64,000 nucleotides of DNA, taken from contig OX031070.1 of NCBI GenBank assembly GCA_943736015.1, positions 44,478,173 through 44,542,172 on the forward strand, read 5' to 3'. The notes below the pieces were generated by a model. It was not told the DNA's origin. It did not search any database and was given only the letters and a program-made list of their open reading frames with translations. The translations under genes and the position numbers were made by a program. This stretch comes from Tridacna crocea. Its lineage: Eukaryota > Mollusca > Bivalvia > Cardiida > Cardiidae. Positions 2,539 through 63,949 of the stretch are shown here, piece by piece (the stretch's first letter is position 1; each line of letters begins with the position of its first letter).

Positions 2539-2766
2539 TTAACCTTTTACCAAACGACAAAATGTTAGACTGGTCCAAATTGAAAGCACTTACAGATGAA
2601 AAATAAACATAGCTAGAAAATTGAAATTTGTTTCTAGCAGGGTAGAAAACATTGTAGGAAAAGGAGAAAATGCTGGTCACCAGCAGTTTCTCCTTTTCCT
2701 GCAATGTTTTCAAAAAGCTTCTGTCTCGGGGTCTTTAAAAGTCGGGATTACGTGGTAAAGCGTTAA
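2539..2766 (-). mobile_element. TTAA MITE, family A
   Basis: TTAA-flanked; starts TTAACCTTTTACCAAACG and ends GGTAAAGCGTTAA. The central palindrome around the GAGAAAATGCTGGT arm is slightly degraded. Confidence 0.85.
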
Positions 2767-2820
2767 AAATGTTTTCTCCAATATCTCACATGTGACAATA
2801 TTTTCAAAGTTACTTTTTCC

Positions 2821-2957
2821 GCGAGATCGTTATACCTCGGGATCGTTATACCTCGAGATAGTTATACCTCGAGATAGTTATACCTCGGGATCGTTATACT
2901 TCGAGATCGTTATACCTCGGGATCGTTATACCTCGGGATCGTTATACCACGGGATCG
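2821..2957 (+). repeat. 16-bp minisatellite
   Basis: About eight head-to-tail copies of a 16-bp unit close to GATCGTTATACCTCGG, with C/A variation at fixed positions. Confidence 0.9.
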
Positions 2958-3129
2958 TAGGGTAAAGGGTTGGACCAAAGAACCATTCACTTTTTCCTCA
3001 CTGTATTTCCCGAGAGACAATGAAGGTTTAAAGGAAAATACTCGCTCTAAAATGTCTTCGTGGAAGGATTAAAACAGGTACTATAGTAGATCAGTTACAG
3101 ATATCATACATGTTCCGTACATACGCATG

Positions 3130-4205
3130 GCCCGATAATATGAGGTTATTTAACATGCTTGGGTAAAATACTGAATTGTATTGGATGAGTACACTGCAGA
3201 ACCAGTCTATATTTTGGACTCGTCCAAAATATAGACTGGTTCTGAAGTGCACGAATCCAATTGAATGCAGTATTGTACCCAAGCATGTTAAATGACCTCT
3301 TTATTTCACACTTCCGTATTGACTTTGAAGTAAACGGCAACTACATGTATATGGTCATTTCAATTTGAATAATTAAAAAAAAAAATCAAAACATAACAAG
3401 AGAGGATTTTGAAGTTGCCTTTTCACAACGGACTTCGGTACACTACTCTTCCGGTCCAATATCGATATTCGGGACTCTAGCCTCGTTCTGAAAAATCCGT
3501 ATTGGACTCTTGCCTCGTTCTGAAAAATCCGTATTGGACTCAAGCCTCGTTCTGGAAAATCCGTATTGGACTCTAAAGCGTCTAATATGGGCTAAGATAT
3601 TCTGTACTCACGTGGTAGTATTAAAGCGATTTCATTGGACGTTAAGTTGTAGGTGTGAAATAATGAATTCTATTGGATGATTGCACTGAAGAACCAGTCT
3701 ATATTTTGGACAAGTCCAAAATATAGACTGGTTCTGCAGTGTACGAATCCATTGGAATGCAGTATTGTACCAAAGCATGTTAAATAACTTCTTTATTTCT
3801 CACTTCCGTATTGACTTTAAAGTAAACACAAGAATAGGGTCATTTCAATTTGAATAATTGAAAAAAATAAAATCAAAACATTTCAAAAGAAGGGTTTGAA
3901 ATTGCTTTTTGTAAACAACAAACTTCGGCAGACTACTCTTCTGGTCCAATATCGATATTCGGGACTCAAGCCTCGTTTTGAAAAATCCGTATTGGACTCA
4001 AGCCTCGTTTTAAAAAATCCGTATTGGACTCTTGCCTCGTTCTGAAAAATCCGTATTGGACTCTTGCCTCGTTCTGAAAAATCCGTATTGGACACTACAG
4101 GGTCTAATATTGGCCAAGATATTCTGTGCTCACGTGGTATTAAAGCTTTTCCCCACAGTGTTAAAGCGATTTAATTGGACGTTAAATTGTAGGTGTGAAA
4201 TAAAG
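3130..4205 (+). repeat. Tandemly duplicated ~0.5 kb unit containing a hairpin and 32-bp repeats
   Basis: Unit 1 (about 3175-3660) and unit 2 (about 3660-4205) align over their full length. Each carries a palindrome of CTATATTTTGGAC / GTCCAAAATATAG (3207 and 3699 regions), then a poly-A-rich patch. Each then has 32-bp tandem repeats (GACTC..GCCTCGTTCTGAAAAA): three copies from 3473, four from 3963. Each ends in AGGTGTGAAATAA. Offsets of 492 bp at the start and 540 bp at the end reflect the extra 32-bp unit and a small insertion. Confidence 0.85.
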
Positions 4206-4424: not shown

Positions 4425-4652
4425 TGAACCCTTTCCCAAACAATCCCTGGTTTTTACGGGTCAGGAATAGAAGCCTTTTGAAAACATTGTGGGAAAAGGA
4501 GAAAATGCTGGTAACCAGCATTTTCTCCTTTTCCCACAATGCTTTCTATCCTATCATATAGAAAATTCATCTTTTTAGCAACTGTTAATTTGTCATCTGC
4601 AAAATGCTTTGAATTGGTCTGGTCCAAAATTTGCCATTTGGGAAAGGGTTAA
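4425..4652 (+). mobile_element. TTAA MITE, family A, sub-branch D
   Basis: Left terminus TGAACCCTTTCCCAAAC has one mutated TTAA base; the right end GGGAAAGGGTTAA is intact. Shares the GGGTCAGGAATAGAAGCC and CTATCATATAGAAAATTC segments with the copy at 62558-62783. Confidence 0.85.
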
Positions 4653-5155: not shown

Positions 5156-5230
5156 AGAAATTAATTTGGTATCAATACCAAAATGTTTGCCAAACGCCAG
5201 GTCATCAGATAGTTCGAAATAAAATTACCA

Positions 5231-5459
5231 TTAACCCATTACCACTCAATCCTTACTTTTGACATCCCTGATAAAGAAGCCTTTTGAAAACACTGTAGGA
5301 AAAGGAGAAAATGCTGGTCACCAGCATTTTCTCCTTTTCCCACAGTGTTTTCTACCTTTCCCAGAACAAATTCCAATTTTTCAGTCACCTTTAATATGTT
5401 TTCTGCAAATGCTTTCAATTTGAACCAGTCTAAAATTTTGTCGTTTGGTAAAGAGTTAA
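5231..5459 (+). mobile_element. TTAA MITE, family A
   Basis: Intact TTAACCCATTACCAC start, GGTAAAGAGTTAA end, perfect central hairpin centred near 5320. Confidence 0.9.
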
Positions 5460-5981: not shown

Positions 5982-6211
5982 TAATATCCATTACCACACA
6001 ATCCCTACTTTTGACACCCCTGAGAAAGACACCTTTGGAAAACATTGTGGGAAAAGGAGAAAATGCTGGTAACCAGCATTTTCTCCTTTTCCCACAATGT
6101 TTTCTACCTTCACAAAACAAATTTCAAATTTTCAGTAACTTTTAATTTTGTCGTCTGTGAATGCTTTCAATTTGGACCAGTCTAAAATATTGTTGTTTGG
6201 TAATGGGTTAA
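5982..6211 (+). mobile_element. TTAA MITE, family A
   Basis: The left TTAA has decayed (ATAATATCCATTACC). The right end GGTAATGGGTTAA and the core hairpin are intact. Confidence 0.85.
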
Positions 6212-6800: not shown

Positions 6801-6807
6801 AATCTAA

Positions 6808-8200: not shown

Positions 8201-11200
8201 CTAATAAGCGTGTTTGGCAACAAATAAAGACTGGTCTGCTGCAGCACTCTTGATATCTCCTTTGTACTGTCCAACTGAAGCTAGACCATTGGCCTGAAAA
8301 ATTTAGATATGAACTGAATGAAATATTTGTATAAAAAGGAACAATTTTCATCCTGATAATAAATATTAGCTATTTGATTTAAATGGAACAGTGTCGTAGT
8401 AGACAAATTCTAACCCTTCGTAATGGTTTAAAATGGGAGGGGGGGGGCACATACATGTACATGTAAGACTATTATGGTATTCAAAGAACGTGTTAGCGTT
8501 TTCAACCCTTAACTTACTAAATAACTAACATGAAACTAAGTCGATAGTAAAAACCCAAAGATTGCTTTCCAAAAATTGTTTCCTAACCCTCTACTCCATA
8601 AATACTCAATTCTAAACATTGCTTGTAGGAGCCTTTGGAAAACATCGTGACAAGTGATTTCACCTTTTGCCATTCTTCACCATCAAAAGGTGTCATATAC
8701 ACATGAGAAACGGCTTCCTCCTTGCTGTTATTTAGGGTCAATTAGAGATACCATAGAAATGCCTTATGCATGTTCTGTGCAGTCTGATCTTGATCTACAC
8801 TGTCTGAAAAAAGTCCTTTAACTGTACATAGCAGCTTAACTCTTTACCAAAAGACAATTTTTTGGGCTGAACACAGCCCCGCAGGAACAAAAAAATTATA
8901 ATGCTAGAAGTTTTCAATTCTAATTGCCTTCAGTTTTACTATTTTTTTTCTCAAACAGTGATGATAAAGAATACCATTATAAAATGTGGGCAAATAATTA
9001 CAGGAATCATCCGATACATACCTTTGCACGAAGAATGAGTTCTTGTTGTGCAGCTGGTACATTGTCATCTTTACCCATCCAGGCTTTCAACACACTGGCT
9101 TGCAGAGCTCTTCCATAGGAGAAAGTCAGAGCCCAGGGTTTCTTGCCTTGAAATGCATTGATGGCACTCAAGTTGAGGGAAGCATCTTCCTCAGATTGTC
9201 CACCAGACAAGAACGTGATACCTATATAACAGGTAAAAGATGGGATGAGTGAGTCTAATACCTATTCCATCATTCATACATAACTAAACAATCACTCTTT
9301 TCCTCCCTTGTCATTGTGCAAAAAAATTGTCAAAAGAATGTTCACCTGTTAGAGAAGAAAGAGTACTATAGCCAAGTAACAAAACAAAAATACCATACTG
9401 ATACTTTAGATAACATGTACTACCCTTGTAGACTAGGTTAATTAAATCCTTTAAAATTCTGAAAATGGCCTTTTTATAGACAATCCAACTTTAAAGTCTG
9501 AATAAGAGACAGCCATAACTAGATCTTTCACTAAGCATGATTAATTCAAATATTGTTTTAAAGAAAAAAGCAAAAGTTGTCATAAAATCAAACCTGGAAC
9601 TGCAGGTGGCACAGCCCTACTCAAAGCTGTAACAGTTGCCTTTGCAATGTCATCAGCGGTATACTTGGTGGTGCAGCTCTGTCCTGCTGTAACCATGTTG
9701 GGTTTGAGAAGAGTTCCCTCCAGAAATACATGATGGTCAGCCAATGCCTTGTATTGGAATGCAAGAACCTGGGACAGAATAGTATGATGTATCATCTATC
9801 ATGTCTTATCCCTCTGGCAAATGACAAAAGTTTTGATTTATACAAATTTTTGGTTACCAGCATTTTCTCTTTTTCCCAAAATGTTTTCTATAGGTTTCTT
9901 CCTAGAGTAGTTAAAAGTGGGTATTGAGTGGTAAATAGTTAATTAACATTACAGGCTATGATTATTACAGGCTATGATTAATATAAAGAAACGTTTCTTC
10001 ATAATGAAAACGTATCAAGTTCAGTCCCTGCTAAATGGTGCTTCCTTTACATTTTACTTCATTAAGTCATTACCAAACAACAATATTTTAGGCTTGTCCC
10101 AAATCCAAAGCATTTGCAAATGACAAAAAAAAAGTGACTGAATTATTTAAATTTGTTTTGTGAAGGGTAGAATACATTGTGGGAAAAGGAGAAAACGCAT
10201 TTTTTCCTTTTCCCAAAATGTTTTCTACAGGCTTCTTTCTCTGGGACGTCAGAAGTGGGGATTGTGTGGTAATTGGTTAATCAATCGCTGAACCACTGGT
10301 CTTTGGTGCCAAATTACTGAATGTTCTAAACAACATCTATCACGCTGTTTACCTGTTCGGTTACTTTCTGTGCTGTTTCAAGATCATGGGTGCCATCTGG
10401 TAAAACTTCAGGTTCAACAATTGGAACCAGGCCATTCTGAAAAAGACAAATTTTGGTAAAGCATAATTAAACAGTCTGTTGTTTAACCTGAAATACACAT
10501 ATCAAATTCTGTAAATTACCAACTACACAGTCAGTGTATTTGTTCACTACATGTATTTCCTAGTAAGAGAATCCTTTAACCCTTTACATTACAATACTGA
10601 GCTTTTACCAGTCCACAGACAAAAACCTTTTGAAAACAGGTTGATGAGATGAGAAAATATTGGTAACCAGGGTCCATATGCACCAATCATTCTTGAGAAT
10701 ATTCTTGGTCTTATTCTCCAAGGTTTTCCTCATTTGTAAGTAACACAACTTACCTGACAACCGAGGGTAATTAGTCGTAATGGTGAGTTTTTAAGATTTG
10801 TCACCCAAGATAATACGTGCCTAATATGAAAAAGATCATGGTAGGAATATTTGGGTAAAGTCTGGTTCAAACTCAGCTGGTAATATCAGAGAAAAAGGTG
10901 TTTGACTAAAATGTTGATGCATCATGAAGGGATGCAGCCATCAAAACCAGGCAATGACCTACGCTCACTATCACTCACTATCACTCACTGGGTTGAGCTT
11001 AACCCATTACCACACAATCCCTACTTTTGACAACCCTGAGAAAGAAGCCTTTTAAAAACATTGTAGGAAAAGGAGAAAATGCTGTAAACCAGCATTTTCT
11101 CCTTTTCCCACAATGTTTTCTACCCTTCTAAAAACAAATTTCAATGTTTCAGTCAATTTTATTTTGTAGTCCGCAAATCCTTTCAATATGGACAAACCTA

Positions 11201-16475: not shown

Positions 16476-16554
16476 TTTGAATACTGTGTGTTTGATCTGA
16501 AAAATGTATAAAAGCATTCTCCACATTATTTCAGTCATCCCTTCAGTAGGTTCA

Positions 16555-16766
16555 TTAAACAATCCCTGGTTTTTATACTGATGAGATAGAAGCCTTTTGA
16601 AAACATGGTGGTAAAAGGAGAAAATGCTGGTATAAACCAGCATTTTCTCCTTTTCCTACAATGTTTTCTACCCTGATTGGACAAATTTCAACTTCTGAGT
16701 TACGTTTAATGTGTCATCTGCAAGTGCTTTCCACCTGTATAAAATTTTGTCGTTTGGTAGAGTTAA
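16555..16766 (+). mobile_element. TTAA MITE, family A, terminus lost
   Basis: The left terminal CCCTTTACC is missing (TTAAACAATCCCTGG directly). The hairpin is intact; the right end is GGTAGAGTTAA. Confidence 0.8.
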
Positions 16767-18820: not shown

Positions 18821-18824
18821 TTAC

Positions 18825-19445: not shown

Positions 19446-19697
19446 TTAACCCTATACCACACAATCTTGAGTTTTAATTAATGGTCGCTAAGAAAATTAC
19501 TTTTGAAAACATTGTGGGAAAAAGAGAAAATCCTTGTACCCAGCATTTTCTCTTTTTCCCACAAGGATTCCTACCTTCTTATTAAGGGTCAATAAGAGAT
19601 ACAATAGAAATGCCTGATAGGGTAAAGGGTTAATTTGTCTTCTGCAAATGCCTTCAACATGGACAGATCAATATTTTTGTTGTTTGGTTTAGAGATA
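19446..19697 (+). mobile_element. Chimeric TTAA MITE (family A left, family B right, plus A remnant)
   Basis: The left part is family A (TTAACCCTATACCACACAATC). The hairpin is decayed. 19575-19633 has the family B tail (AGGGTCAATAAGAGATAC, GGTAAAGGGTTAA). 19630-19697 is a family A right arm (CTTCTGCAAATGCCTTCAAC). This suggests nesting or recombination between subfamilies. Confidence 0.75.
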
Positions 19698-21135: not shown

Positions 21136-21690
21136 TTAATCCTTTACCACACGGCAAAATTTTATACCTATCCAAACTGAAAGCATTTGCAGACAACAAG
21201 TTTATAGTAGCTAAAATGACGCAATTTTTCTTTGATAGAGAAGAAAACTTTGTGGGAAAAGGAGAAAATGCTGGTAACCAGCATTTTCTCCTTCTCCCAC
21301 CATGTTTTCAAAAGGCTTCTTCCTCAGGGTCATTAAAAGTCGTCATTATATGGTAAAGGGTTAATCATTTTCAAATGATATTTTTTAGACTGGTCAAAAT
21401 AAAAAGCTGTTGTAGATAGCAACTTGCATATGGCTCTTTTGATGAAATCTGTCTCTTTAAGGGCAGAAAACATTGTGGAAAAGGAGAAAATGCTGTAAAC
21501 CAGCATTTTCTCCTTATTCCACAATGTTTTCAAAGGCCTTTTCACCAAGGATCATTAGAAGTGGGGATTGTGTGGTTAAAGTTTAACTCTCAACCACAAA
21601 GTTCTGTGTTTATGGAAACTGAAGATGAAAGCTTTTGAAAACATTGATAAAAAAGGAGAAAATGTTGGTAACCAGATCTACCAAAACTAC
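21136..21690 (-). mobile_element. Array of two full TTAA MITEs and a truncated third
   Basis: 21136-21364 and 21361-21586 share TTAA at 21361. A third, cut after the left half of its hairpin, starts at TTAA 21583 and runs to about 21690. The array sits 43 bp after the MZT2 stop, so it may lie in the MZT2 3' UTR. Confidence 0.85.
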
Positions 21691-22327: not shown

Positions 22328-22561
22328 TTAACCCTTTACTCCACAGATACTCCTTTTTTACGCATTGCTTGTAGGAGCCTTTGGAAAACATTGTGGCAAA
22401 AGGTGAAATTGCTCTGAGCAATTTCACCTTTTGCCACAATGTTTTCTATGCTATTCAAAGGTGTCATATACGCATAAGAAATAGCTTCATCCTTTCTGTT
22501 ATTTAGGGTCAATTAGAGATACCATAGAAAATTAGAAATGCCTTATTGGGTAAAGGGTTAA
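22328..22561 (+). mobile_element. TTAA MITE, family B
   Basis: TTAACCCTTTACTCCACAG to GGGTAAAGGGTTAA. The hairpin tip is shortened to TTGCTCTGAGCAA. Confidence 0.9.
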
Positions 22562-23365: not shown

Positions 23366-23367
23366 AT

Positions 23368-54400: not shown

Positions 54401-57400
54401 ATCTCAATCTGTAAACTAGTGGTGTCCATGGTTGTGAGGTAGAGCGTCGGCCTTTTAATCAAAAGGTCCCGAGTTCAAGACCTGGGAGCGGGTGTCAACT
54501 GCGGGATTTTTCATTGGCTCATACATTTGGCGCGAGTACTGGTGTCGTTCCCAGGAAGCAGAATCAAGAGAGATTAGCAAGAACTTGTTTCTCAACTGAT
54601 GTAAAATAAATATGTTTCACCCATTACCACACAATCCCTACTTTTAACGACCCTAAGTAAGAAGTCTTTAGAAAACATTGTGGGAAAAGGAGAAAATGCT
54701 GGTAACCAGCATTTTCTCCTTTTCCTACAATGTTTTCTAAGGCTTCTGTCTCAGGGTCGTCAAAAGTAGGGATTGTGTGGTAATGGGTTAAGTACCCCCA
54801 CCTCTTTTGGCAAGGGCATGGTTCATTTGGTTGGAGCAGTCAGTAGTTGTGTTACTTTCTAAACCCAGAATGAGGCTGTGAATGAAACTGCGAAAGATTG
54901 GTAACTATGATTCCTGGAGTATACCTGTGTATGTTAACATTGCTTGTGTCCAATATCTGACCTCCAGTGATGGTCATTTTTCTGAGTCCTTTTGGTGGCC
55001 GTTCCAACATGTTGAGTGGATACCAATATCTTACCAGCACACCTTCACTTCGTAAGTAGGTCTCGACTTGGACCAGTTCATGTTGCTGAAAAATATACAA
55101 TTAAAATCTTACTTCAACCAAAATTACATCGTCATTTCATAAAATCTTTGAGAAGTTTAGATATGAATCATATTCAGGCAAGTGTACCTTTGTGATGCAT
55201 TATACCAAGTAACCCTTTACTCCATTGATACTCATTTCTGCGCATTGCTTGTAGGAGCCTTTTGAAAGCATTGTGGCAAAAGGTGAAATTGCTTGTCACA
55301 ATGTTTTCTATGCTATCAAAAGGTGTCATATACACATAAGAAATTTGTCACAATATTTTCTATGCTATCAAAAGGTGTCATATACACATAAGAAACGGTT
55401 TCATCCTTGCTGTTATTTAGACATAGACACTCATTTCTACGCATTGCTTGTAGGAGCCTTTTGAAAACATTGTGGCAAAAGGTGAAATTGCTCGTGACGA
55501 GCAATTTCACCTTTTGTCACAATGTTTTCTATGCTATCAAAAGGTGTCATATACACATAAGAAACAGCTTCATCCTTGCCGTTATTTAGGGTCAATTTGA
55601 GATACCATAGAAATGCCTTATGGGGTAAAGGGTTAAGCCATCACATGCTTATGGATCCACAAAAGTCACCTTTTTTAAGTAATCAACTCAATCAGAGGTA
55701 GACTGGTCCTTAGACATACAGAAAATTGTCAAACTGTGAAAATTTCAGCCAAGGTCAGCCTAGGCGGACATGGTTGGTTGGTTATTTCCGTTTATTTATC
55801 GTCGCTACCGGTTACCCATCTGAGTGACGCCCCCAGAAGACGGTTAGTTGTTATGAGGGATAGTGTAAGGATACAGGTCGAAACTACTGACAGCTTCGCC
55901 TGGTTCTTTAACGTGCTCGGCGTATAGCATCGTCACAAGGGACCTTAGTTTAATGTCCCATCCGAAAGACCATTAGTAATTTTAGTCGGCCAGCCGGGGA
56001 TTTGAACACACAGCCTGTAGTGACCCGAAACATTGTGTACACGAATCCTACGCTCTACCTACTGAGCTATATCAGCTGGTAGGCGTACATGGGTAGATAC
56101 TTTTCGCAGATGCATTAAGCCCCTTCTCACAAAACATGGGCCGTATAAATCTCAATATTTTATGCTTTAGTAGACAACAGACTCTTGTACATGTCCATAT
56201 TGAAAATATACTGGGATGAAAAAGAAAAGCAGCGTAACCTTTCAAGGTAGTTTAGAGGAGTATAACTTGATTGAGAATTCTAAATTATTATTTTATGTTG
56301 ACCACTGATCAGTTTTGAATATTTTGATGAAATTTCATTTCAGTGTGGCCAAAAGGAAATGAGAAAATGGCTTCTTATTGACCATACCCCCTCCTCAGTG
56401 AAAAAAAAGTAGTGACTGACTGAAAATGGAGACTCAAAGCTTGTTCAATATCTCTTATGGTACCCTGCGTTTCTTTTTTGTCTTAGTATATATGCAAACA
56501 AAGAATCATTTGTGGCTCAAATAACCTAAAGTTCAGAACACATTGTGCAGAAAGGAGAAAATGCTTACCAAAGACGTTGTAGAAGGATTTCTTCCTAAGG
56601 TAGTGCCATCATTTGGAAACAGTGAACCTTTTACCATACAACAACATCTTACATCCGTCCAAATTGAATCCATTTGCAGAAGACAATTTCAATTTGGCAC
56701 AATTGATGCAAATTTTCTTGATAGGGCAGAAAACATTGTAGGAAAAGGAGAAAATGCTGGTAACCAGCATTTACTCCTTTCCCCCAAATATTTTTGAAAC
56801 ACTTTTTCATAAGAGTCATTGAAAGTCAGCATAATGTAGTATACATAAAGAATTTGACATACCTCACTGCCCATGTGCAAACCTTTGCATGTCTAGAAAA
56901 CAAATTAATCATTCATACCATGCTATACTTACATTATCAATGTCTAATACAGTGCCTGTCAGTCCAAAGGTCTTTAACATTGATCTTACAGCAAACTTTG
57001 GTAAAACTGTTGTTCCTGTTGAACTAGCCCCTGTAGGATCTCTTATCATAACAGTGGTCCCTTTTCTGACCCTGTCTATTGTAAATTTGGCCAGATCCTC
57101 CTTGATGTCCTCAATAGTTGGAAGGTGAAGGTCACGAGGCATCCCACCATTTTCTTCATACAGAAATTCAACAGTTTGTCTTGCTATATCTGTCATTCCT
57201 TAAAATGGAAATAATTTGAGATAATTTAATACCATAAGGACTAAATAACGTCATTTTTTCAAACCTAGGAATTTAACTTTTTACCCAACAACATAAATTA
57301 TTTCAAACTTATTTTTTTGAGAAAAAAATCTCCTTATTAGATTGGGTAGATCTAAGATCAGACCTCACATTTGACAAATTCACACAAAACTTTGTCAACT

Positions 57401-60400
57401 GATTCTCTGATATTTCATCCTTTGTTTTTCAAAGTTTTACCAACTAATCCCCTGCTTTAAAAACTGAAGAAAGGCTTCTGAAAACAATAATTATCTACCT
57501 ATATAACCCTTTATCACAATTCTGACCTATTACCACTCATTAACCCATTACCAAACAATCTCTACTTTTGACGACCCTGAGAAGCCTTTGGAAAACATTG
57601 TGGGAAAAGGAGAAAATGCTGGTAAACAGCATTTTCTCCTTTTACCACGATGTTTTCTACCCTTCAAAAAACAAATTTCAGATTTTCAGTCACTTTTATT
57701 TTGTCATCTGCAAATGCTTTCGATTTAGACAAACCTAAAATTTTGTCTATCGGTAATGAGTTAAGAGACAGCCTTAGACAACATTGCTGGTTAACAGCAT
57801 TTTTTCCTTCTCCAAGCCTTTCCTACCCTGTTTACTACCTTTTTTAGAGACAACTTTCATCATTTGAGCAACATTTGATTTTAGTAAATACTTTAAATCT
57901 GAGTAAGTCTACGAATTTGTTGTCCTGTAAAAATCTAATGATTATACAAATTGTGAAATGGAAATTTTAAAAGTTTAAAGAGAAAGATACCTTTGAAAAC
58001 ATTGTTGGAAAAAGGGCAAATGCCAGAATATGTGTTATTTCATTTTCCTGCAATGTTTTTCCTGCATTGTTATCTTACCCTATCAAATACAGAGCCCATC
58101 ATCTGTTTAACTCTTTACCACACAATCCCTACTTTCAACGACTCTGAGAAAGAAACCTTTTGAAAACATTGTGAAAAAAGGAGGAAATGCTGGTAATCAG
58201 CATTTTCTCCTTTTCCCACAATGTTTTCTACCCTTCCCAAACAAAATGTTCAGTCACATATGTTTTGTCTTCTGCAAATACTTTCAATTTGTTCGGGGCA
58301 AAAATTTTCTCATGTGGTAAAGAGTTAAAATTTAATTTTGATATGCATTTTCCTTGGAAACTTCTACAACTCTTTTGTTTTGTAGGGAGTTAACCATCAC
58401 TTTCAAACATCCCCCTACCTAACTGTAAAGCTCCTTTTATCTGTTCTAAACCATCTTTTCTCTCAGCCTCATTTCTGAACCTTCTCTTTATAACTGGGAA
58501 CACTTTCTGTTCCCAGGCTTTCACTAGCAAAGCATAATGGTCTTCATTAGAATGTTCCTCCTCTGTAGAATCATCATCAGACAGGGTGTCGGGCGCTGGC
58601 AGGGCTGATCTCGGGTCTGGTCCTGTTGTAATCATACTATCATAGGAATAAAATAGTTTGTAAAACTTGGATGTCTCCGGGCAGTACTCTGAAATTTAAA
58701 TGAATTTTATATCACTTTCAAGAAATTTGACAGTTGTCACATTGTCAAGTAGAGAGATTCTATATAAACTTAAACTTTTGTTAACAGTCTATTACACTAC
58801 ATGATGTTAGTTGTAACATTCATAATTATAAATAGTCCTTACATAATTTGAACTTTAAACTATTTACAAAAAAATTAGATTCTTCCATACTGAGAGTAAA
58901 CTGCAAACAACAATATGCTCTATTCACTATCAATTCTGAATGGATAATTCTTTTCCAGCCTTGGAATTATCATAAAACCAAGATATTACACCAGTCATGA
59001 ACAACAATTCTGAGTCTGATACACTGAAAAATAAAGATAGGCATCCATAGCATTCAATATTTTAACTTCCGATACAATTCAACACTGTTATTTGGCAAAA
59101 AAGGCTTGAGATACTAATACTTCTACTGACTTGTAGTAAACCTTAGAATAATAGGCACAAATAAAGTGGTATTTAACCCATTACCACACAATCCCTACTT
59201 TTGATGCCCCTGAGAAAGAAGCCTTTAGAAAACACTGTAGGAAAAGGAGAAAATGCTGGTAACCAGCATTTTCTCCTTTTCCCACAGTGTTTTCTACCCT
59301 TCCCAGAACAAATTTCTATTTTTCAGTCATCTTTATTTTGTCGTCTGCAAATGCTTTCAATTTGAACCAGTCTAAAATTTTGTCGTGTGGTAATGAGTTA
59401 AAAGACACAAAAGATCAAGCTTCTCTTTCAAAATAATATAGAGTAAGCAGTCTGATCAAGCTTCTGCATTGTCAGCTATTTCTGTAAAACATTCTGGCAT
59501 TATCAATCTTAGCATTTCAAACGTTTATCATTTTTGTTCCAGACTGAATAAGCCTGCATGATTTATTCTGCTCTCTAAGATTACATTTAGTAAGTAATAA
59601 CATTAGAGCATTTACCTTTCTGTGGTTTGGGTATAGGGACAGTTTTACATGGAGGTCCACTCAATAAATCTGTATCTGGAAGATCTGCTGTAGCACTAGG
59701 TGTGGACGGGGCTGTCACTGCTCCCTCACTGTCACTGTCTGACTGAGAGCAGAATGGAAGATGGTTAAAACTCTCCCTGATCTCTCGTGTCAGGTCATCT
59801 GCCTCATCAGCAGCTTCCCTGTGTTGTTGTCCCTCGGCATAGGCAAAAGATCTTGCTCCAAAGTTGGCCTTCACTCTTGTTGTCTGTTGAAAAATATTGT
59901 CACATCATATTTGATTTAGAAAATATATCTATTAGTAAAGCCTTATAAAAAGACATGTTTTTTTTTTTTTTTTCAGAGAGCACTGAATACCCAAAGATAG
60001 AAAAAAATGAAAAGTATAAAAGATTACAAGGACACAGTTGAATACAACCAAAGCAAGCCTCAACCAATCAGAATGTAGGCTATTTCTAGTTTGTTAAATT
60101 GATGCTGTATGGCATTATTAGGTATTTCAACCATATGACAGAGTCATCTTACTTAATTCCTGGCTTTAACTAGTTTAGCTTAAGGACAGTCAAAGCCTCA
60201 TTTTCAATTAAAATCCTAAACCCTTTCCCCACTCAATCAGAGGCAGATCACTTACTTGTGCAAGTAGCAAAAGGAGAAATATTTGAAGAGAAATGGCCTA
60301 ATGGATGGCATGGCAAACACCATTTGAGAAAGGAGTATTACTATCAAAAGGACTCTGTTGCAGTGACATAGCTTGTCTTATCTGTCAGGAAGTGGGTTAC

Positions 60401-63069
60401 CTAAAATTTCACCATCTTTGGTACATTATAATGGCGTCCAACCTTGAATCTATAACATGAAGCTGAGCAATAGAACATGACATTTATTCTTTACCAGACA
60501 ACAAAATTTCAGATTTGTTCACACTGACTGCCAATAGGAAAATCAAATCAAATGTGTATCTTACAAGAGAGATTATCCTTGACAAGCAAAAATTTTCAAA
60601 GGTCTTTATCGCATGGTTGTTAACCCTTTATCACACAATGACGATGTTGACTTTTAATCGTCCTGAGGACGAAGCCTTTTGAAAACATTGTGGGAAATGA
60701 AGAAAATGGTGGTGACCAGCATTTTCTCCTTTTCCCACAAAGTTTTCTACCTATCAAAGAAAACTTGCATCATCTTGGCCACTAAAAATTGGTGTCTGTA
60801 TATGCTTTGAAATTTGGTTGGGTCTAAAATTTTGCTGTGTGGTAAGGGGTTGGGGTTAAAGCACAGGAATAATTTGTAAAAGGTAAAGAATCTGAAACCA
60901 TTATACCTTTTTCTGAATATGTACCACTGGAAACATTGCTCCTGCTACATCATCTATGTAGGGTTGTAATCGTCTACCATTGTATGTGAAGTAAACCTTT
61001 CCTTTTGGCATTTCCCCCTGGACAGGAGTGTCTCCAGTTCGCTCCCAGCCTATACCTGCTATATCCCCAGCAGCTACAATACAGTCTAATCTCACACTTC
61101 TCCACTGTAACAAGCTTGCTCCATTATAATGGACTGCTTTACCATTACTGTAAACAGAGGAATGTTACAATTATTATCACTGATGGATGGATTTGTCTTT
61201 CTGTAAATCAGTGACTAATCAATAAACCACTATTTTCTAGAATTCTCACTTTACCAGCATCTTTGCGAGCCAAGATTACGATCACTACATTTATCTTACC
61301 TTCGCTGATTGAGCCTGATTTCGTGATTCCTACGATGAACCCTCTATTGGATGCTGGTTATTACCCCCCCTTTACATCATATTTCTAAAAGCCAGTGAAA
61401 TATCGTTTTACAAACCGCTTACGAATACACATGAAACGATAAGCAGACATCCACGTGGGTTTCCATGTTTACCTTCTATTCGAAAGGTAGCGACCTTGTT
61501 CTATTTTTATCGAAGATCAAATGCTACAAGCGATTTCATTTGTTGCAGTTAGAACTGGCTGCATCCAATGAAAAAGCGTATCAGGGGAATGTAAAAATCA
61601 AGGTCAATCTGCCAAGGGTAGAGTAGCTAGTGAATCATCAGCCTTGGCTTGCGAAGATGCTTTACCAGATGATACAATTTTTAAGACTAATGAACTGGTC
61701 AAAAATGATAGAATTTGTTATTAAAATGGTAGAAAATTGTTTCTGAAATGAAAAAAATGTTGGTTTCTTTAGATCTTTTTCCAACAATGTTATTAGTTTT
61801 ATTCCTCAGGGATCTAAAGACATGAAGATAGTTTGGCTAAAGATTACTAGTAATATGATTCAACTTAACCCTTTACTCCATAGATACTCATTTCTATGCA
61901 TTGCTTGTAGGAGCCTTTAAAAAACAATGGGCCAAAAGGTGAAATTGCTCGTGACGAGCAATTTCACCTTTTGTCACAATGTTTTCTATGCTATCAAAAG
62001 GTTTCATATACACATCAGAAACTGCTTTATCCTTGTTGTTATTTAGGGTCAATTAGAGATATCATAAAAATGCCTTATGGGGTAAAGGGTTAAACCTATC
62101 GAATCTTTCTGTCATGAGTTCAAAGCCACCCACTTGTCCCTGTGTTACTGCTATCAGCATGTTTTCCTCATGGTGTATTACAAAAAGACTAATACACTCA
62201 ATATGTGCCTTATGGGCAAGAAAGGCAACCTTTAACCTTGCCTAAGGCACAAAAAAGGGGACTCACTTCAAGAACAGACAGGTTCCCACTGGATTTGTCC
62301 AAGCACCATCTTTTTTCTCTGCAGCCGGGGAGAAACCAAAAGACACAAAAGCTGAACTCTCATCTTGGCCATCACCAAATGAGCACACCTCTAATTCCCA
62401 GTAAAATGATGGAGCCTGCAGTAAAGAAGACATCAGAAAACACATTTAATATTTATCAAGGGAAAACTGATACAAATAGTCATAATATGCTACAAACAAG
62501 ATTTCAAAATCTTTAAACTTTATTTTTTTCCTGTAAAAGGTTCAAGTTGAAATAAATTTAACCCTTTCCCAAACAATCCCTGGTTTTTACGGGTCAGGAA
62601 TAGAAGCCTTTCGAAAACATTGTGGGAAAAGGAGAAAATGCTGGTAACCAGCATTTTCTCCTTTTCCCACGTTTTCTACTCTATCATATAGAAAATTCAT
62701 CTTTATAGCAACTGTTAATTTGAAATCTGCAAAATGCCTTCAATTTGGTCTGGTCCAAAATTTGTCATTTGGGAAAGGGTTAATGATCTAAAGAAATTAA
62801 CAAGCAGGAAGACAATATTGTGTGGGAATATGGACTAGTCTGTGCAGTCCTTTGTTATTCCACTGATACAACTGTCTTTGAATGTCAGACTGATTTTCTC
62901 TCCCTACCTGTAAGGGTATAGGCATGTTTGCATACACCATTACTCCTCGGGGCAGACCTGTTCCAGCACTGGGGTCTCCAAGAAAGGTCACGCCTGTCAG
63001 GTTATGTGAAAAGAGACTGGCTCTCACTGGTGGGAATGTTCTACTGGTGTCCCAAACTACTTCCTTGTT
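29769..63069 (-). CDS. HECTD4: Giant HECT-type E3 ubiquitin ligase, HECTD4-like (5' partial, 25 exons, 2,083 residues visible)
   Basis: Transfers ubiquitin from an E2 through a HECT cysteine thioester to substrates. Exons 5' to 3': 63069-62908, 62415-62267, 61147-60907, 59883-59616, 58688-58395, 57198-56933, 55085-54925, 54056-53736, 51174-51078, 50161-50031, 48954-48248, 47669-46253, 43710-43624, 42330-42252, 41858-41724, 40436-40297, 39173-38983, 38284-38018, 36400-36245, 35371-35208, 34697-34545, 34199-34081, 32866-32671, 31157-30944, 29905-29769. They sum to 6,252 nt and stay in frame throughout. Order: SPRY/B30.2, a long conserved middle, a Ser/Lys-rich low-complexity part, then HECT. 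This order, with no RCC1 or WD40 repeats between SPRY and HECT, fits HECTD4 rather than HERC1. The gene symbol rests on family recall, not a search. The first ~1,900 residues expected for HECTD4 lie outside. Confidence 0.85.
30180..30349 (+). mobile_element. TTAA MITE, family A, ends eroded
   Basis: A perfect core hairpin (GTGGGAAATGGAGAAAATGC and its mirror) with a compensatory change on both arms. The termini are no longer TTAA. In the last HECTD4 intron side region. Confidence 0.75.
30369..30387 (+). repeat. Poly-A run
   Basis: About 19 consecutive A after AAAAATCTAA; could be the tail of an old retroposon. Confidence 0.7.
30484..30822 (-). mobile_element. Two adjacent TTAA MITEs
   Basis: 30484-30606 is a degenerate short copy beginning TTAACCTTTTATC. 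30603-30822 starts at the TTAA in TTTTAACCC and ends GTGAAGGTTTAA. Confidence 0.7.
31213..31652. mobile_element. Two TTAA MITEs, family A, opposite orientation, sharing one TTAA
   Basis: 31213-31441 (-) has a perfect hairpin and ends GGGTTAA at 31438-31441. The second (+) begins there and is truncated after TCTAAAATTTTGTCAT at about 31652. Confidence 0.9.
31680..31711. repeat. Short perfect palindrome
   Basis: AGATCAGACTGCAC and GTGCAGTCTGATCT are separated by AAAAG. They abut the truncation point of the MITE at 31652, suggesting the edge of another repeat. Confidence 0.7.
32286..32514 (-). mobile_element. TTAA MITE, family A
   Basis: TTAACTCTTTACCACACAAG to GGTAATGGGTTAA; hairpin tip slightly changed (CTGGTCACCAGAAT). 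Confidence 0.9.
33148..33376 (-). mobile_element. TTAA MITE, family A
   Basis: TTAACCCTTTTCCAAACAAC to GGTAAAGGGTTAA. Core carries GAGACAATGCTGGT with the matching change on the other arm. Confidence 0.9.
34239..34473 (-). mobile_element. TTAA MITE, family A, diverged
   Basis: TTAACTCTTCATCACATCAC to GTAAAGGGCTTAT. Intact hairpin, eroded right terminus. Confidence 0.8.
34735..35090 (+). repeat. Dispersed ~330-bp repeat, copy 1 (copy 2 at 39503-39835)
   Basis: The two copies share GTCCAAATGTAAAAAGG, CGATATGTAAAGG / TGATATGTAAAGG, then GTAAACACTATGTG / ATAAACACCATGTG and GATAATTCAATG. Both lie in HECTD4 introns in the same orientation. Confidence 0.8.
35095..35190 (-). mobile_element. TTAA MITE fragment
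   Basis: Half hairpin and one arm (AAGGCTTCTTCCTCAGG) to GGTAATGGGTAAA; lies 18 bp from the donor at 35207. Confidence 0.6.
35376..35870 (+). repeat. 45-bp minisatellite touching a HECTD4 splice acceptor
   Basis: About nine near-perfect 45-bp units (GACAAAGATAGAAATGACAG, then TAACACCCTTGACAGTTC), phase starts at 35401, 35446, 35491 and so on, plus one or two diverged units to 35870. The array begins 3 bp beyond the acceptor AG of exon 35208-35371. Confidence 0.95.
36516..36745 (-). mobile_element. TTAA MITE, family A, sub-branch D
   Basis: AATAAACCCTTTCCCATAAG to GGGAAAGGGTTAA. Contains the D marker segment ACAAATTAACAGTTGC; perfect hairpin. Confidence 0.85.
36863..37530. mobile_element. 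Array of three TTAA MITEs (-, +, -) sharing TTAA junctions
   Basis: 36863-37085, 37082-37308 and 37305-37530 meet at TTAA 37082-37085 and 37305-37308. All are family A with clear hairpins; the third lacks the hairpin tip (GCTGGTTTGC). Confidence 0.92.
37784..38012 (+). mobile_element. TTAA MITE, family B, 5 bp from a HECTD4 splice donor
   Basis: TTAACCCTTAACTCCATAG to GGGGTAAAGTGTTAA, hairpin tip TTGCTCGTGACGAGCAA. The donor of exon 38018-38284 reads GTTTG and the MITE begins at intron position +6. Confidence 0.92.
38380..38530 (+). mobile_element. TTAA MITE, family A, internally deleted (~151 bp)
   Basis: Intact termini. The left arm GACGCCC joins directly to AACAATGTTTTCTACCC, removing the whole hairpin. 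Confidence 0.88.
39503..39835 (+). repeat. Dispersed ~330-bp repeat, copy 2
   Basis: See the copy at 34735-35090; same order of shared segments with moderate divergence. Confidence 0.8.
40455..40673 (-). mobile_element. Degenerate TTAA MITE
   Basis: Terminal traces only (CCTTAAACTCTTTTTGACAC, TTATGTTGTAAATGATTAA). Its right TTAA is the left TTAA of the next copy. Confidence 0.6.
40670..40898 (+). mobile_element. TTAA MITE, family A
   Basis: TTAACCCATTACCACACAATC to GGTAATGAGTTAA; perfect hairpin. Confidence 0.92.
40967..41191 (+). mobile_element. TTAA MITE, family A, hairpin shortened
   Basis: TTAACCCTTTACCAAACAATC to GGTAACCAGTTAA; the right hairpin arm has lost the CATTTTCTCC segment. 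Confidence 0.85.
41264..41707. mobile_element. Degenerate family A MITE followed by a family C MITE sharing TTAA
   Basis: 41264-41483 (-) is diverged and ends GGTAAAGGGTTTAA. 41480-41707 is family C with a perfect hairpin bar one base (GCTCCTAACGAGC) and ends GGGAAAGGGTTAA, 17 bp from the exon 41724-41858. Confidence 0.85.
42002..42231 (+). mobile_element. TTAA MITE, family A
   Basis: TTAACCCATTACCACACAATC to GGTAAAGAGTTAA; ends 21 bp from exon 42252-42330. Confidence 0.92.
42391..42620 (+). mobile_element. TTAA MITE, family A
   Basis: TTAACCCATTACCACTAAATC to GGTAATGAGTTAA; hairpin near perfect. Confidence 0.92.
42715..42870 (+). repeat. Dispersed SINE-like repeat
   Basis: Contains GACATGCAGGAAATTCACC, GCGCAGGCTGACCTGGGTCA and the tail CACAGAGCATGGCT shared with 15940-16095, 26340-26545 and 55670-56150. 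Confidence 0.75.
42961..43380. mobile_element. Two TTAA MITEs, family A, sharing one TTAA
   Basis: 42961-43189 (-), with an almost perfect hairpin, and 43186-43380 (+, left terminus shortened) share TTAA 43186-43189. Confidence 0.88.
43855..43905 (+). mobile_element. TTAA MITE left fragment adjoining the 1.65 kb element
   Basis: CACACAATCCAGAGTTTTAAC and AAAGACCTTATAAAAAC match the family A left arm up to the start of the next element. The right half was not found after 45545. Confidence 0.55.
43903..45545. mobile_element. 1.65 kb non-coding element with ~165-180 bp internal tandem units
   Basis: Begins ACAAGAGGGCCATTGGCCC and ends in a palindrome at 45511-45545 (AGCTCACCTTTAGCAC / GTGCTAAAGGTGAGCT). 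The inside is seven or more head-to-tail units marked by ACTTGGTAGAGGTCCA (44216, 44381, 44544, 44710, 44876, 45046, 45228 regions) and CCAGTTTTGACCCCAGGG. The long minus-strand ORF at 44771-45214 is a by-product of the periodicity. Similar ACAAGAGGGCC elements are, to my knowledge, widespread in bivalve genomes. Confidence 0.8.
45730..45930. mobile_element. TTAA MITE family B fragment beside a GACAGACAGA microsatellite
   Basis: 45755-45790 holds a GACA-rich repeat. 45840-45930 has a half hairpin (GACGAGCAATTTCACC) and the B tail to GGGGTAAAGGGTAA. Confidence 0.65.
46253..47669 (-). CDS. HECTD4: HECTD4-like large internal exon with Ser/Lys-rich low-complexity segment
   Basis: A single 1,417-nt exon, the largest in the gene. 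It starts after TTCTCTTCACAG with GVGIGVTDHGRFSTYFQALM. A basic, Ser-rich disordered stretch follows (SRRKKMKTKRDRRES, then SSSSSLLSVASDVAA). Then comes a globular part (ALTVSHILRCLAFNEKNG, LVIITGIPTNLDPEFVKQ) and an acidic/Lys-rich linker (EDEDLKKAEKAEKD). The end splits a Ser codon into 43710. The disordered part may carry phosphorylation or nuclear-localisation signals; this is inference. Confidence 0.88.
47717..47944 (-). mobile_element. TTAA MITE, family B
   Basis: TTAACCCTTTACCCCATAAG to GAGTATAAGGTTAA; perfect hairpin bar one base. 47 bp upstream of the acceptor of exon 46253-47669. Confidence 0.92.
48008..48180 (+). mobile_element. Degenerate TTAA MITE
   Basis: TTAACCTTTTACTAATAAG, a collapsed hairpin (GCGGGAAAAGTTTTCTCC) and a right-arm trace (TTGTCGTCTGCAGATG). 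Confidence 0.65.
48248..48954 (-). CDS. HECTD4: HECTD4-like internal exon (707 nt)
   Basis: Conserved middle region beginning NSLYKSAWARIFCYTG, with IIVTVHALPPQFLLALTYIE and ETEIPALVKEYVFIQLAQSV-type helical stretches, and ending ETVVTASGSG. The first codon is completed by GA from 50031 and the last G joins GT at 47669. No named domain recognised. Confidence 0.88.
49270..49498 (-). mobile_element. TTAA MITE, family A
   Basis: TTAACTCAAATTATCAAAC to GGTAATGGGTTAA. Clear right arm and hairpin. Confidence 0.88.
50165..50560. other. HECTD4 intron stretch, nothing recognised
   Basis: No repeat or coding pattern seen. Confidence 0.4.
50563..51014 (-). mobile_element. One TTAA MITE plus a degenerate neighbour
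   Basis: 50563-50785 (TTAAAACCTCTAACAAATGAC to GTAAAGGGTTAA) keeps a good hairpin. 50810-51014 keeps only the general arm pattern and ends AAAGGATTAA. Confidence 0.75.
51538..53642 (-). mobile_element. TTAA MITE split by a satellite-bearing element
   Basis: Left MITE half 51538-51657 (TTAACTCTTTACCAAACGAC to AACATTGTGGAA). Right half about 53536-53642 (AAAAGGAGAAAATGCTGG to GGTAAAGGGTTAA). The break falls inside the left hairpin arm. Confidence 0.9.
51658..53535 (+). mobile_element. 1.88 kb element with ~11 units of a 156-bp satellite
   Basis: Begins ACAAGAGCGGCAAATTGTCG with GATACGCCCGTCTT; ends in a (CCCG)n-rich stretch followed by TACGTCCCGTC and GACGGGCGTAT, so both ends carry related inverted motifs. 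Inside are about 11 head-to-tail units of about 156 bp, marked by GGGCAATAACTCAAAAATTA, GTGCACTGCACTCC and TTTCATAACCCTAGCTA. The later units differ by only a few bases, so the array was recently amplified or homogenised. Confidence 0.9.
54085..54282 (-). mobile_element. TTAA MITE, family C, left hairpin arm lost
   Basis: TTAACCCTTTCCCAAATGAC to GGGAAAGAGTTAA. Contains ACTTGTACTGCAGACACAT, the C marker in reverse. 29 bp from exon 53736-54056. Confidence 0.85.
54425..54605 (+). mobile_element. tRNA-derived SINE
   Basis: A tRNA-like head: A-box-like GTTGTGAGGTAGAGCGTCGG, a CTTTTAATC anticodon-loop-like region, and B-box-like GAGTTCAAGACC. A non-tRNA body with CATTTGGCGCGAGTACTGG follows. No acceptor stem pairing, so not a functional tRNA gene. 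Confidence 0.75.
54615..54791. mobile_element. TTAA MITE, family A, full-length foldback (177 bp)
   Basis: Unlike typical copies, both arms are the left-arm sequence: ACCCATTACCACACAATCCC at one end mirrors GGGATTGTGTGGTAATGGGT at the other, so the whole element can fold into one ~85-bp stem. Right end TTAA at 54788-54791. Confidence 0.9.
55209..55636 (+). mobile_element. TTAA MITE, family B, with internal duplications
   Basis: Starts GTAACCCTTTACTCCATTG and ends GGGGTAAAGGGTTAA. A first partial hairpin is followed by two repeats of TGCTATCAAAAGGTGTCATA, then a complete B core with tip GCTCGTGACGAGC. Confidence 0.88.
55670..56150 (+). repeat. Dispersed SINE-like repeat interrupted by a tRNA-derived SINE
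   Basis: The left half 55670-55775 (AGACATACAGAAAATTGTC, AAGGTCAGCCTAGGCG) and right half 56085-56150 (GCAGATGCATTAAGCCCC, CACAAAACATGGGC) match one family (see 42715-42870). The middle is unrelated. Confidence 0.8.
55776..56085 (-). mobile_element. tRNA-derived SINE (minus strand)
   Basis: The reverse complement starts with a tRNA-like head: A-box-like ATAGCTCAGTAGGTAGAGCG and B-box-like GTTCAAATCCCCGGCTGG, followed by a ~220-bp body. It splits the repeat at 55670-56150. Confidence 0.85.
56545..56845. mobile_element. Degenerate TTAA MITE copies
   Basis: A fragment near 56545-56570 (GCAGAAAGGAGAAAATGC). A fuller copy at about 56628-56845 has a hairpin (GCTGGTAACCAGC) but decayed ends. Confidence 0.65.
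57540..57940 (+). mobile_element. TTAA MITE, family A, followed by a degenerate copy sharing TTAA
   Basis: 57540-57764 (TTAACCCATTACCAAACAATC to GGTAATGAGTTAA) is well kept. 57761-57940 starts at the same TTAA and shows only a degraded hairpin and arm. Confidence 0.85.
58107..58328 (+). mobile_element. TTAA MITE, family A
   Basis: TTAACTCTTTACCACACAATC to GGTAAAGAGTTAA. Good hairpin. 67 bp from exon 58395-58688. Confidence 0.9.
58690..59172. other. HECTD4 intron stretch, nothing recognised
   Basis: AT-rich, no repeat family recognised. Confidence 0.4.
59173..59401 (+). mobile_element. TTAA MITE, family A
   Basis: TTAACCCATTACCACACAATC to GGTAATGAGTTAA; perfect hairpin bar one base. Confidence 0.92.
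59884..60480. other. HECTD4 intron stretch, nothing recognised
   Basis: A poly-T run near 59960; otherwise no repeat or coding pattern seen. Confidence 0.4.
60620..60859 (+). mobile_element. TTAA MITE, family A
   Basis: TTAACCCTTTATCACACAATG to GGTAAGGGGTTGGGGTTAA; the right end has a small GGGTT duplication. 48 bp from exon 60907-61147. Confidence 0.85.
60907..63069 (-). CDS. HECTD4: HECTD4-like exons encoding the SPRY/B30.2 domain
   Basis: Three exons (63069-62908, 62415-62267, 61147-60907). The SPRY fold is visible in FYWELEVCSFG, then SAFVSFGFSP, CLFLNNGKAVHYNG, DIAGIGWERTGDTP, KGKVYFTYNGRRL and AGAMFPVVHIQ, in the expected beta-strand order. The domain covers about residues 45-180 of the visible protein. 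SPRY domains bind peptide partners, so this is a likely substrate- or partner-binding module. Junctions are phase 0 at PLQ|APS and split Asn codons at LFLN|NGK. Confidence 0.88.
61250..61860. other. HECTD4 intron stretch, mostly unrecognised
   Basis: A faint MITE-like segment at about 61690-61800; otherwise nothing recognised. Confidence 0.4.
61865..62093 (+). mobile_element. TTAA MITE, family B
   Basis: TTAACCCTTTACTCCATAG to GGGGTAAAGGGTTAA; hairpin tip TTGCTCGTGACGAGCAA. Confidence 0.92.
62558..62783 (+). mobile_element. TTAA MITE, family A, sub-branch D
   Basis: Very close to 4425-4652: same GGGTCAGGAATAGAAGCC and CTATCATATAGAAAATTC. Intact TTAA at both ends, with a 5-bp loss beside the hairpin. 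Confidence 0.92.
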
Positions 63070-63135
63070 CTGAAAATAATCATACTCTAATTTTTTCCTA
63101 TTACCTATGTTATGGTATTCTGCATTTCTTGAATG

Positions 63136-63570
63136 ATATAACTCTTTACCAAACAATCCCAAGTAGTAACGCCTCTGAGGAAAAAAACTCTTGAAAAGAT
63201 GGTTATTTGCATTTTCTCATTTCGGAAAATGTTTTCAAACTTTCCAATGACAAATTTCATTATCTAAACTACATTTAGTGTGTCATCCGCAAATGCTTTA
63301 AAATTCGGGCTAGTCTACAATTTGTCATTTGATAAATGAGTTAACCCTTTACCTGATATGCCAATTTGAGGCTCTTCCATTTCAGCAGCAAATAAAGATA
63401 TGATGTCAAAAATATGGACAAATGAGGATACAAATATCTGATAGAGAGGAAAACATTGTTGGAAAAGTAGAAATTGCTCGTTACGAGCAATTTCTCCTTT
63501 TCCCACAATGTTTTGAGAAGCTGTCTGTTGTTGATACGTCAAAATGAGTATCTGTGCAGTAAAAGGTTAA
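63136..63570. mobile_element. Two TTAA MITEs (A-like then C-like) sharing one TTAA
   Basis: 63136-63344 (+) has lost one hairpin arm. 63341-63570 has a C-type tip TTGCTCGTTACGAGCAA and ends GTAAAAGGTTAA. Junction TTAA 63341-63344. Confidence 0.8.
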
Positions 63571-63689
63571 CTGAATAATCCTAAATTACTCAGCATTTTC
63601 TTGTCTTCCCATTATGATTTCAATCCTTTCAAGGATAACCATAATTCTATAAGCAACATTTCATTTTTTTTTTTTCATCTACAAATGCT

Positions 63690-63949
63690 GTCAATATGGA
63701 CATGACTTGGACTATGTTGTCTGTTACAGACTTCAAACATATAGGCGTCACTATGGTAACATCAGAGAAGAAAAAAACCTTATCGAAAAAGGAGAAAATG
63801 CTGATGACCAGCAATTTTTCCTTTTCCCACTAGGTTTTCCACATTTTCATATACAATTATCATCATTTCACCTATATTTAATTAGTCATATGCACATGCT
63901 TTCAATTTGGACCTGTCTGAAATTTTGTTGTTTGGTAAAGAGTTAAGTC
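63690..63949 (+). mobile_element. Degenerate TTAA MITE, upstream edge of window
   Basis: A hairpin remnant (GGAGAAAATGCTGATGACCAG) and a right arm to GGTAAAGAGTTAA. Part of a HECTD4 intron; no further exon found between 63070 and 64000. Confidence 0.65.

Follow-up and report, generated by a model that had tools for sequence, protein, structure and literature searches.

What are the short symmetric repeats that crowd a 64,000-nucleotide stretch of the Tridacna crocea genome, and why do their families share one large central palindrome? The stretch, called the window below, is C15:44478173-44542172 in a genome assembly that totals 1,048.8 Mb and has 31 contigs. We consider the repeats to be piggyBac-type miniature inverted-repeat transposable elements (MITEs) that need their palindrome, either to bind transposase or as a structure, a reading to which we give a probability of roughly 0.55. 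What is new here is that families with strongly diverged arms keep the palindrome through compensatory pair changes.

Abundance in the window and in the genome

The first-pass annotation of the window had put the number of copies, read by eye, at about 70. An iterated profile search (E <= 1e-4, overlaps removed) bore out the abundance and corrected the number upwards, to 96 non-overlapping copies, 51 of them full length, which cover 17,416 bases (27%) of the window. The other 45 of the 96 are partial, and most of these have no row in Table 1. The TTAA-CCC-TTTACC ends, mirrored ends and central palindrome described in that annotation were all present, with the exact ends TTAACCCTTTACC / GGTAAAGGGTTAA occurring 8 + 10 times in the window, and the first copy does start with TTAA at position 2539. 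As judged by eye, 50 of the 60 near-perfect palindromes listed in the window have the element core or its relatives. Sixteen neighbouring pairs among the 96 copies abut or nearly abut, and the window holds 498 TTAA.

The whole-genome count that had been proposed as a check gave 133,483 exact ends TTAACCCTTTACC (66,634 + 66,849; reversed control, 28 + 20 = 48). The frame GAAAACA-N53-TGTTTTC, which is its own reverse complement and has the exact palindrome length, was found at 252,616 places (control, 29). Both counts are so far above their controls that chance is excluded. The share of the genome was sampled in twenty 4.5-kb stretches at round coordinates on 18 contigs (90 kb, all 20 counted), and these held 91 merged copies making up 19.4% of bases, with none in three stretches and 48% in the richest. 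Extrapolation from this sample gives about 1.06 million copies and about 204 Mb; scaling the exact counts of frames and ends by their numbers in the sample (14 and 16, respectively) gives about 1.6 and 0.76 million copies. An order of magnitude of one million copies is firm, the exact figure is not, and these elements appear to account for about a fifth of the genome.

Tandem runs of a variant palindrome, its copies spaced at multiples of about 143 bp, were also seen at C1:26418-27058 and C1:40067-40276.

Structure of the elements

The sequence analysed in detail contained 229 palindrome places, 209 of them with room for both arms; 137 passed the end score and 72 were dropped. The commonest element length was exactly 229 bp (40/137), and among ten family consensuses eight measure 229 bp, one 228 and one 230. 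The eight 229-bp consensuses have in common TTAA, CCCTTTACC-like ends and a 67-bp palindrome centred at position 141, whose 33-bp arms are longer than the roughly 24 bp first claimed. Pairing is almost complete in these eight (32-33 of 33 pairs), and the two unpaired cases depend on weakly supported letters. Family fam0 has CCCTTTACCAAAC on both sides (13 identical bp), other families have CCCATTACC or CCCTTTCCC, and CTC replaces CCC at one end in fam3, 4, 6, 8 and 9; every consensus starts CC or CT and finishes GG. The elements are MITEs in being short, in carrying terminal inverted repeats (TIRs), in their high copy number and in being, at 229 bp, too short for a transposase. Their ends agree with those of piggyBac elements, a CCY start and a TIR of about 12-19 bp (PMC2872659; this and the other cited papers are used as excerpted).

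Matched changes between families

We refer to fam0 (26 members) as A, to fam2 (14 members) as B, and to the A core changed at d3 and d8 in both arms as core C, where d is the distance of a pair from the centre. Compared in register, the two arms of A and B were 0.36 and 0.50 identical and shuffles were 0.27 and 0.26 (p = 0.03 and 0.0005), so that a distant kinship remains. Identity was 1.00 and 0.92 in the ends and 0.85 in the palindrome. Four of the five palindrome pairs that differ between A and B (d = 3, 8, 13, 20) are compensatory, the fifth being one-sided and weakly supported, and an additional matched pair, at d26, separates fam4 and fam8 from fam0. Comparison of six A-subfamily consensuses showed variation in 3 of the 67 palindrome columns, against 26/87 and 10/35 columns in the arms. 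When 286 copies were aligned to one consensus, mean identity was 0.89 in the palindrome, 0.66-0.78 in the arms and 0.84-0.87 in the end motifs. A short AAAGGCT-like stretch beside the palindrome is also common to the families.

Core A with TTAA 60-80 b to one side occurs at 20,978 genome places and core C at 733, and an A/C hybrid core with one arm of each was found at a single place with a pattern that covers one of the two arm arrangements. Core B, counted without the TTAA condition, occurs at 16,497 places, and an A/B hybrid core with one arm of each again at one. The near absence of hybrids indicates that no one-sided lineage of the A/C or A/B kind became numerous. That the core stayed paired in these families as its surroundings changed suggests that it is needed for jumping.

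Pairing in resident copies

Pair d6 (G-C to A-T) was counted genome-wide. The one-sided change was found at 425 places (one side counted), the compensated double at 29 (28 distinct elements), and a control with two transitions that do not pair at 24 (23 distinct). With equal mutation of the two sides, the one-sided rates predict about 9 doubles; the compensated and the control doubles both exceed this product, as mixed ages of the copies would cause. Judged from d6, the one pair tested genome-wide, pairing is repaired little or not at all in resident copies. In our reading the copies decay where they stand, and constraint, or else rare conversion, acts in the source lineages.

Insertion into TTAA

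In 131 full copies TTAA was found on the left of 94, on the right of 97 and on both sides of 78, compared with 0-2 in six shifted controls (the search model includes the right TTAA and lacks the left one, and seven of the source loci were chosen for an exact end). When the flanks of 89 copies were joined, 16 matched across the junction at paralogous sites. Two of these are clean empty sites with a single TTAA: window positions 45390-45528 (-) match the flanks of the copy at L004:1501-1730 (89% over 139 b), and the copy at L031:844-1070, inside a PB1 piggyBac, is absent from L033 (97%) and others. The comparison of L034:3594-3823 with L037 likewise leaves a single TTAA, but there the left flank is itself an element copy. 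Nine further matches run through neighbouring or host copies, and the other four are considered below.

Age of the copies

The first-pass annotation had spoken of a burst; the ages do not support a single event. The 137 copies diverge from the nearest consensus by 2-29% (median 10.5%), with 3 below 2% and 21 above 20%. All three below 2% belong to fam9, where L034 and L039, at least, represent a single insertion that travelled with a duplicated piggyBac; the youngest independent copies stand at about 2.2% (fam4), and the family medians, except fam9, range from 4.4 to 16.9%. One copy sits in a PB1 element whose copies are 96-99.9% alike, so element activity continued after the PB1 piggyBac had spread. 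The wide range of divergence and the insertion into PB1 together indicate repeated waves.

piggyBac transposases in the genome

PF13843 gave 118 matches in the genome, many with open frames, and Pfam confirmed DDE_Tnp_1_7 in all eight proteins scanned, two of which have a zinc-finger match just below the cut-off. PB1 (L013-L019, L023; copies up to 99.9% alike) and the L025-L029 group (above 99.5% alike over 4.1 kb) each occur on five contigs with most frames open, and both are recently active families. Ends were read as follows and each candidate was rejected as the partner of the MITEs: PB1 (CCCTTTATATAC), PB3 (CCCTAGTCATGC / CCCTTGTCATGC), PB4 (CCCTAGTCATGC, right end aligned), PB5 (CCCTTTCAGTGC, left end only), L041 (CCCTATCCTCCAC), L042 (CCCATTTATGCCT) and L045 (CCCTCTAGA). 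These are seven of the 11 lineages among the 30 best PF13843 loci; the L025-L029 group, L009/L012, L024 and L036 make up the other four, and the 88 weaker matches lie outside these 30.

L041 and L045, open-frame piggyBacs with other ends, contain the palindrome motif in several diverged copies, to the left and to the right of the transposase frame. Outside full copies there were 4 matches in 4.3 kb of L041 and 2 in 3.7 kb of L045, at a threshold set afterwards. The same threshold gave none in the other delimited elements (PB1, PB3, PB4, PB5 and L042); four loci without set limits had 1, 0, 1 and 0, and 119 kb of background had 6. By eye, the two motif sides of L045 resemble an inverted repeat. 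These motif copies may be relics of old inserts, and we offer them only as a lead.

Clusters of piggyBac transposase fragments were noticed at C13:4481437-4612957 (about 130 kb) and C8:56710862-56757774 (47 kb), and are perhaps duplicates or intron-split relatives.

How the elements may have multiplied

In the mechanism we propose, transposase from autonomous elements would excise copies at their ends and insert them into TTAA, duplicating the TTAA. Far from being debris, the palindrome would act as a cis-element, of which a good symmetric form is required for a copy to be multiplied. By analogy with known systems it is most likely the site for the paired C-terminal domains of a piggyBac transposase; a single central palindrome could serve both ends since it is positioned between them, and its ability to fold possibly aids its function. 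Inserted copies would drift freely, numerous families would be founded only by lineages with both arms changed together, and many such waves could have built up some million copies, or about a fifth of the genome. Where a homodimer reads a symmetric site, one expects matched changes, conservation of both sequence and symmetry, and free decay after insertion, and this fits the counts. We infer both the identity of the moving transposase and the role of the palindrome as its binding site.

Binding of this kind is described for piggyBac, where the cysteine-rich domain (CRD) pair of a dimer binds a 19-bp palindrome of one end, and for piggyBat, where the CRD dimer binds an unrelated imperfect palindrome (PMC7351741, PMC11707139). 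A palindrome is present in the T. crocea elements too, but those read by the dimers through their CRDs are 19 bp or less and lie near the ends of autonomous elements, whereas here there is one large central palindrome. In the human system MER85 / PGBD3, MER85 is likewise a piggyBac MITE (140 bp, 13-bp TIRs) with TTAA and an internal palindrome, and this 16-bp palindrome is essential, the TIR not being sufficient, for transposase binding (PMC3459987). Unlike the central 67-bp palindrome here, that of MER85 is imperfect and lies near one end, and MER85 has 889 copies.

Several observations weigh against the required palindrome of a piggyBac-type MITE. First, no autonomous element with CCCTTTACC or CCCATTACC ends was found in seven of the 11 lineages, among the best 30 of 118 loci. 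The first-pass annotation had taken the elements for non-autonomous piggyBac-type; TTAA insertion, CCC/CTC ends, the two clean empty sites and the many piggyBac transposases uphold this, and the same-ended autonomous partner is the part that did not appear among the lineages read. Second, the target was not exactly TTAA at 4 of the 16 junction-spanning paralogous sites (aligned at 71-97%): TTTA in L019 for the copy at L033:3350-3578 (97%), TTCAA in L051:4077-4188 for the window copy 33148-33376 (87.5%), TCAA for L054:1924-2152 (80% over 61 b) and TCAA for the window copy 42387-42620 (71%). Later point changes can explain these four. Empty sites lacking TTAA had been named beforehand as grounds for abandoning a piggyBac origin, and at paralogous sites the two clean single TTAA speak for that origin and these four against it. 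Third, the copies were found via the palindrome and kept by an end score (137/209), without selection on the arms, so that families lacking a palindrome would be missed. Fourth, the right-hand change of the unpaired control is commoner locally (17/222) than that of the paired double (11/213), and with so uneven a control an excess of compensation of up to about two-fold is possible. In addition, non-diagnostic pairs of 174 local palindromes held 47 compensated doubles against 16.7 +/- 3.7 in shuffles; at 1.68 per pair they are about two-fold over 24 shifted registers, which mostly gave 0.2-1.2 per pair, twice 2.0 or more and once 0 (range 0 to 2.75). Fifth, the genome share was taken from 90 kb, and 26 transposase-centred loci (132 kb), a biased set of which much is transposase gene, are only 7.7% element. 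Finally, a palindrome of 67 bp is three to four times the size of known CRD sites, and a dimer site does not explain this size.

A more far-reaching version is tentative, and we think it rather doubtful. A single piggyBac-type MITE superfamily might owe its rise to about a million copies, a fifth of the genome, to its very large central palindrome, working as a common site of recruitment or synapsis and perhaps used by transposases from two or more piggyBac lineages. Selection at multiplication would then act on the pairing or symmetry of the arms, and the families would evolve by compensatory changes as structural RNA does, though they are mobile DNA; the motif copies of L041 and L045 could be the source or relatives.

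Alternative explanations

The palindrome might matter as a structure, either a hairpin or cruciform aiding excision or replication or an RNA hairpin, which we hold to be unlikely but the most serious alternative. The changes between families do preserve pairing. The copy at 31217-31441 folds as a single strand at -55.7 kcal/mol (DNA; shuffles, -22.3 +/- 3.3) and the B copy at 47716-47944 at -77.3 (RNA; shuffles, -41.5 +/- 4.1), but such energies only restate that a palindrome folds. A need for structure does not account for the conservation of the sequence itself among the six A consensuses, and the piggyBac structures, as excerpted, show no comparable internal hairpin (PMC7351741, PMC11707139).

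Mutation could also keep the palindrome without selection, by quasipalindrome correction that is rare in the sources or weak everywhere. The compensatory differences between families are what such correction would leave, and the compensated doubles exceed shuffles and, by up to about two-fold, the better controls. The unevenness of the unpaired control led us to weigh this explanation up and the required palindrome down. At d6, however, compensated doubles are near unpaired doubles in number and far rarer than one-sided changes, and we regard correction as improbable.

Symmetric elements can arise by head-to-head rearrangement. The palindrome could accordingly be a passive relic of a MITE made once from two head-to-head ends, in families too young for decay. 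A relic would have diverged equally with the arms, but the arms of A and B are 36-50% identical while the palindrome is kept at 85% with its pairing, which makes this quite improbable. Very improbable is another TTAA-using superfamily such as Kolobok, which makes TTAA duplications and occurs in bivalves but has 5'-RR...YY-3' termini (PMC9587614, as excerpted), whereas the consensuses start CC/CT and end GG; no search for a Kolobok transposase was made.

Related elements and significance

The first-pass annotation had called short TIRs with a large separate hairpin unusual, which is fair, although related designs are published (PMC2872659, PMC4732748, PMC3459987). The CMITEs of Acropora corals resemble the present elements in being piggyBac-type, in their TTAA duplications and CCCTTT-like ends, in having copies in arrays, and in an internal region that varies less from family to family than the ends do, for which the authors suspect a role in transposition (PMC2872659). 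They differ in length (about 100 bp against 229 bp) and number about 1,600 copies as estimated for one genome. Their internal 75 nt are not mentioned as a palindrome in the excerpts of that paper, by whose description alone they were compared.

The plan of the MITE-like 'repeat 1' of the clam Lucina pectinata is also similar, with 210 bp, imperfect 30-bp terminal repeats and a central 77-bp palindrome (96%); it lies in introns and a promoter, and similar fragments occur in other molluscs (PMC4732748). In contrast to the present elements, repeat 1 is reported in the excerpts with no target-site duplication found, is likened to rice MITEs and has no piggyBac assignment. By description, the T. 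crocea elements may be relatives of repeat 1. A limited literature search, mostly of listings, brought no MITE superfamily of this size to our notice, and we claim no record; six sequence words of the element, searched in the literature, gave among the matches listed only other subjects by title.

If the share of about 19% stands, the superfamily is a main determinant of this genome's size. Its very many copies, with their fixed plan, diverged arms and matched-pair palindromes, amount to a mutagenesis experiment done by nature on the possible requirements of a piggyBac-type end complex, and may bear on why some MITEs explode.

Copies and other features of the window

Table 1. Element copies in the window, by position and strand
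Position	Strand	Description
2539-2766	+	Full copy, A-type (fam0), TTAA both sides
4427-4652	-	Full copy, fam5
5231-5459	-	Full copy, fam8
5987-6207	-	Full copy, fam7; perfect palindrome 6038-6104 (33-bp arms)
10068-10280	+	Full copy, fam3
10999-11223	-	Full copy, fam3
12422-12625	-	Full but diverged copy
13282-13510	-	Full copy, family B (fam2)
14608-15270	-	Three full copies head to tail, abutting: 14608-14833, 14834-15046, 15048-15270
16099-16330	-	Full copy, fam8; adjoins frame with aldolase exon (16335-16655, -)
19446-19693	-	Full copy, fam6
21141-21675		Three abutting copies: 21141-21364 +, 21366-21586 +, partial 21583-21675 -
22328-22557	-	Full copy, family B; perfect palindrome 22384-22446 (31-bp arms)
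22674-22902	-	Full copy, fam6
23840-24067	-	Full copy, fam5 with C-type palindrome (d3, d8 changed in both arms)
24655-25108		Two copies close together: 24655-24881 - (fam4), 24888-25108 +
26576-26797	+	Full copy, fam7
27821-28072	+	Full copy, fam7
30607-30822	+	Full copy
31213-31652		Two back-to-back copies sharing GGGTTAACCC: 31217-31441 + (fam4, perfect palindrome 31320-31386), 31438-31652 -
32290-32514	+	Full copy, fam4
33148-33376	+	Full copy
34243-34469	+	Full copy, fam6
36520-36745	+	Full copy, fam5
36867-37530		Three abutting copies: 36867-37080 +, 37082-37304 -, 37309-37530 +
37784-38006	-	Full copy, family B
40670-40894	-	Full copy, fam3; partial neighbour 40477-40672 abuts
40967-41183	-	Full copy
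41266-41703		Two abutting full copies: 41266-41480 +, 41480-41703 -
42002-42227	-	Full copy, fam4
42391-42616	-	Full copy, fam3
42967-43375		Full copy 42967-43189 + with abutting partial 43186-43375 -
47716-47944	+	Full copy, family B; palindrome 47823-47889
49280-49498	+	Full copy, fam3
50570-51012	+	Two full copies: 50570-50785, 50812-51012
54089-54282	+	Full copy, fam5
55421-55632	-	Family B copy, nearly full; palindrome 55463-55529
57540-57760	-	Full copy, fam3
58107-58324	-	Full copy, fam4
59173-59397	-	Full copy, fam8
60620-60849	-	Full copy, fam1
61865-62089	-	Full copy, family B
62558-62779	-	Full copy, fam5; perfect palindrome 62622-62670 (24-bp arms)
63139-63570		Two full copies: 63139-63336 -, 63345-63570 +
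63774-63942	-	Last copy, partial

Searches of the window with Rfam (gathering threshold) and ARAGORN gave no matches, and its reading frames match HECT and class-I aldolase domains. Tandem arrays lie at 51718-53449 (156-bp unit), 44089-45322 (166 bp) and 35379-35864 (45 bp), and a hairpin pair with a common core, of another repeat type, at 27029-27208. Near-perfect palindromes of other sequence, with arms of 32 and 29 bp, were seen at 3189-3252 and 3684-3741 near 16- and 32-bp tandem repeats, and a palindrome unrelated to the elements, with 39-bp arms and one mismatch, occupies 2278-2356.

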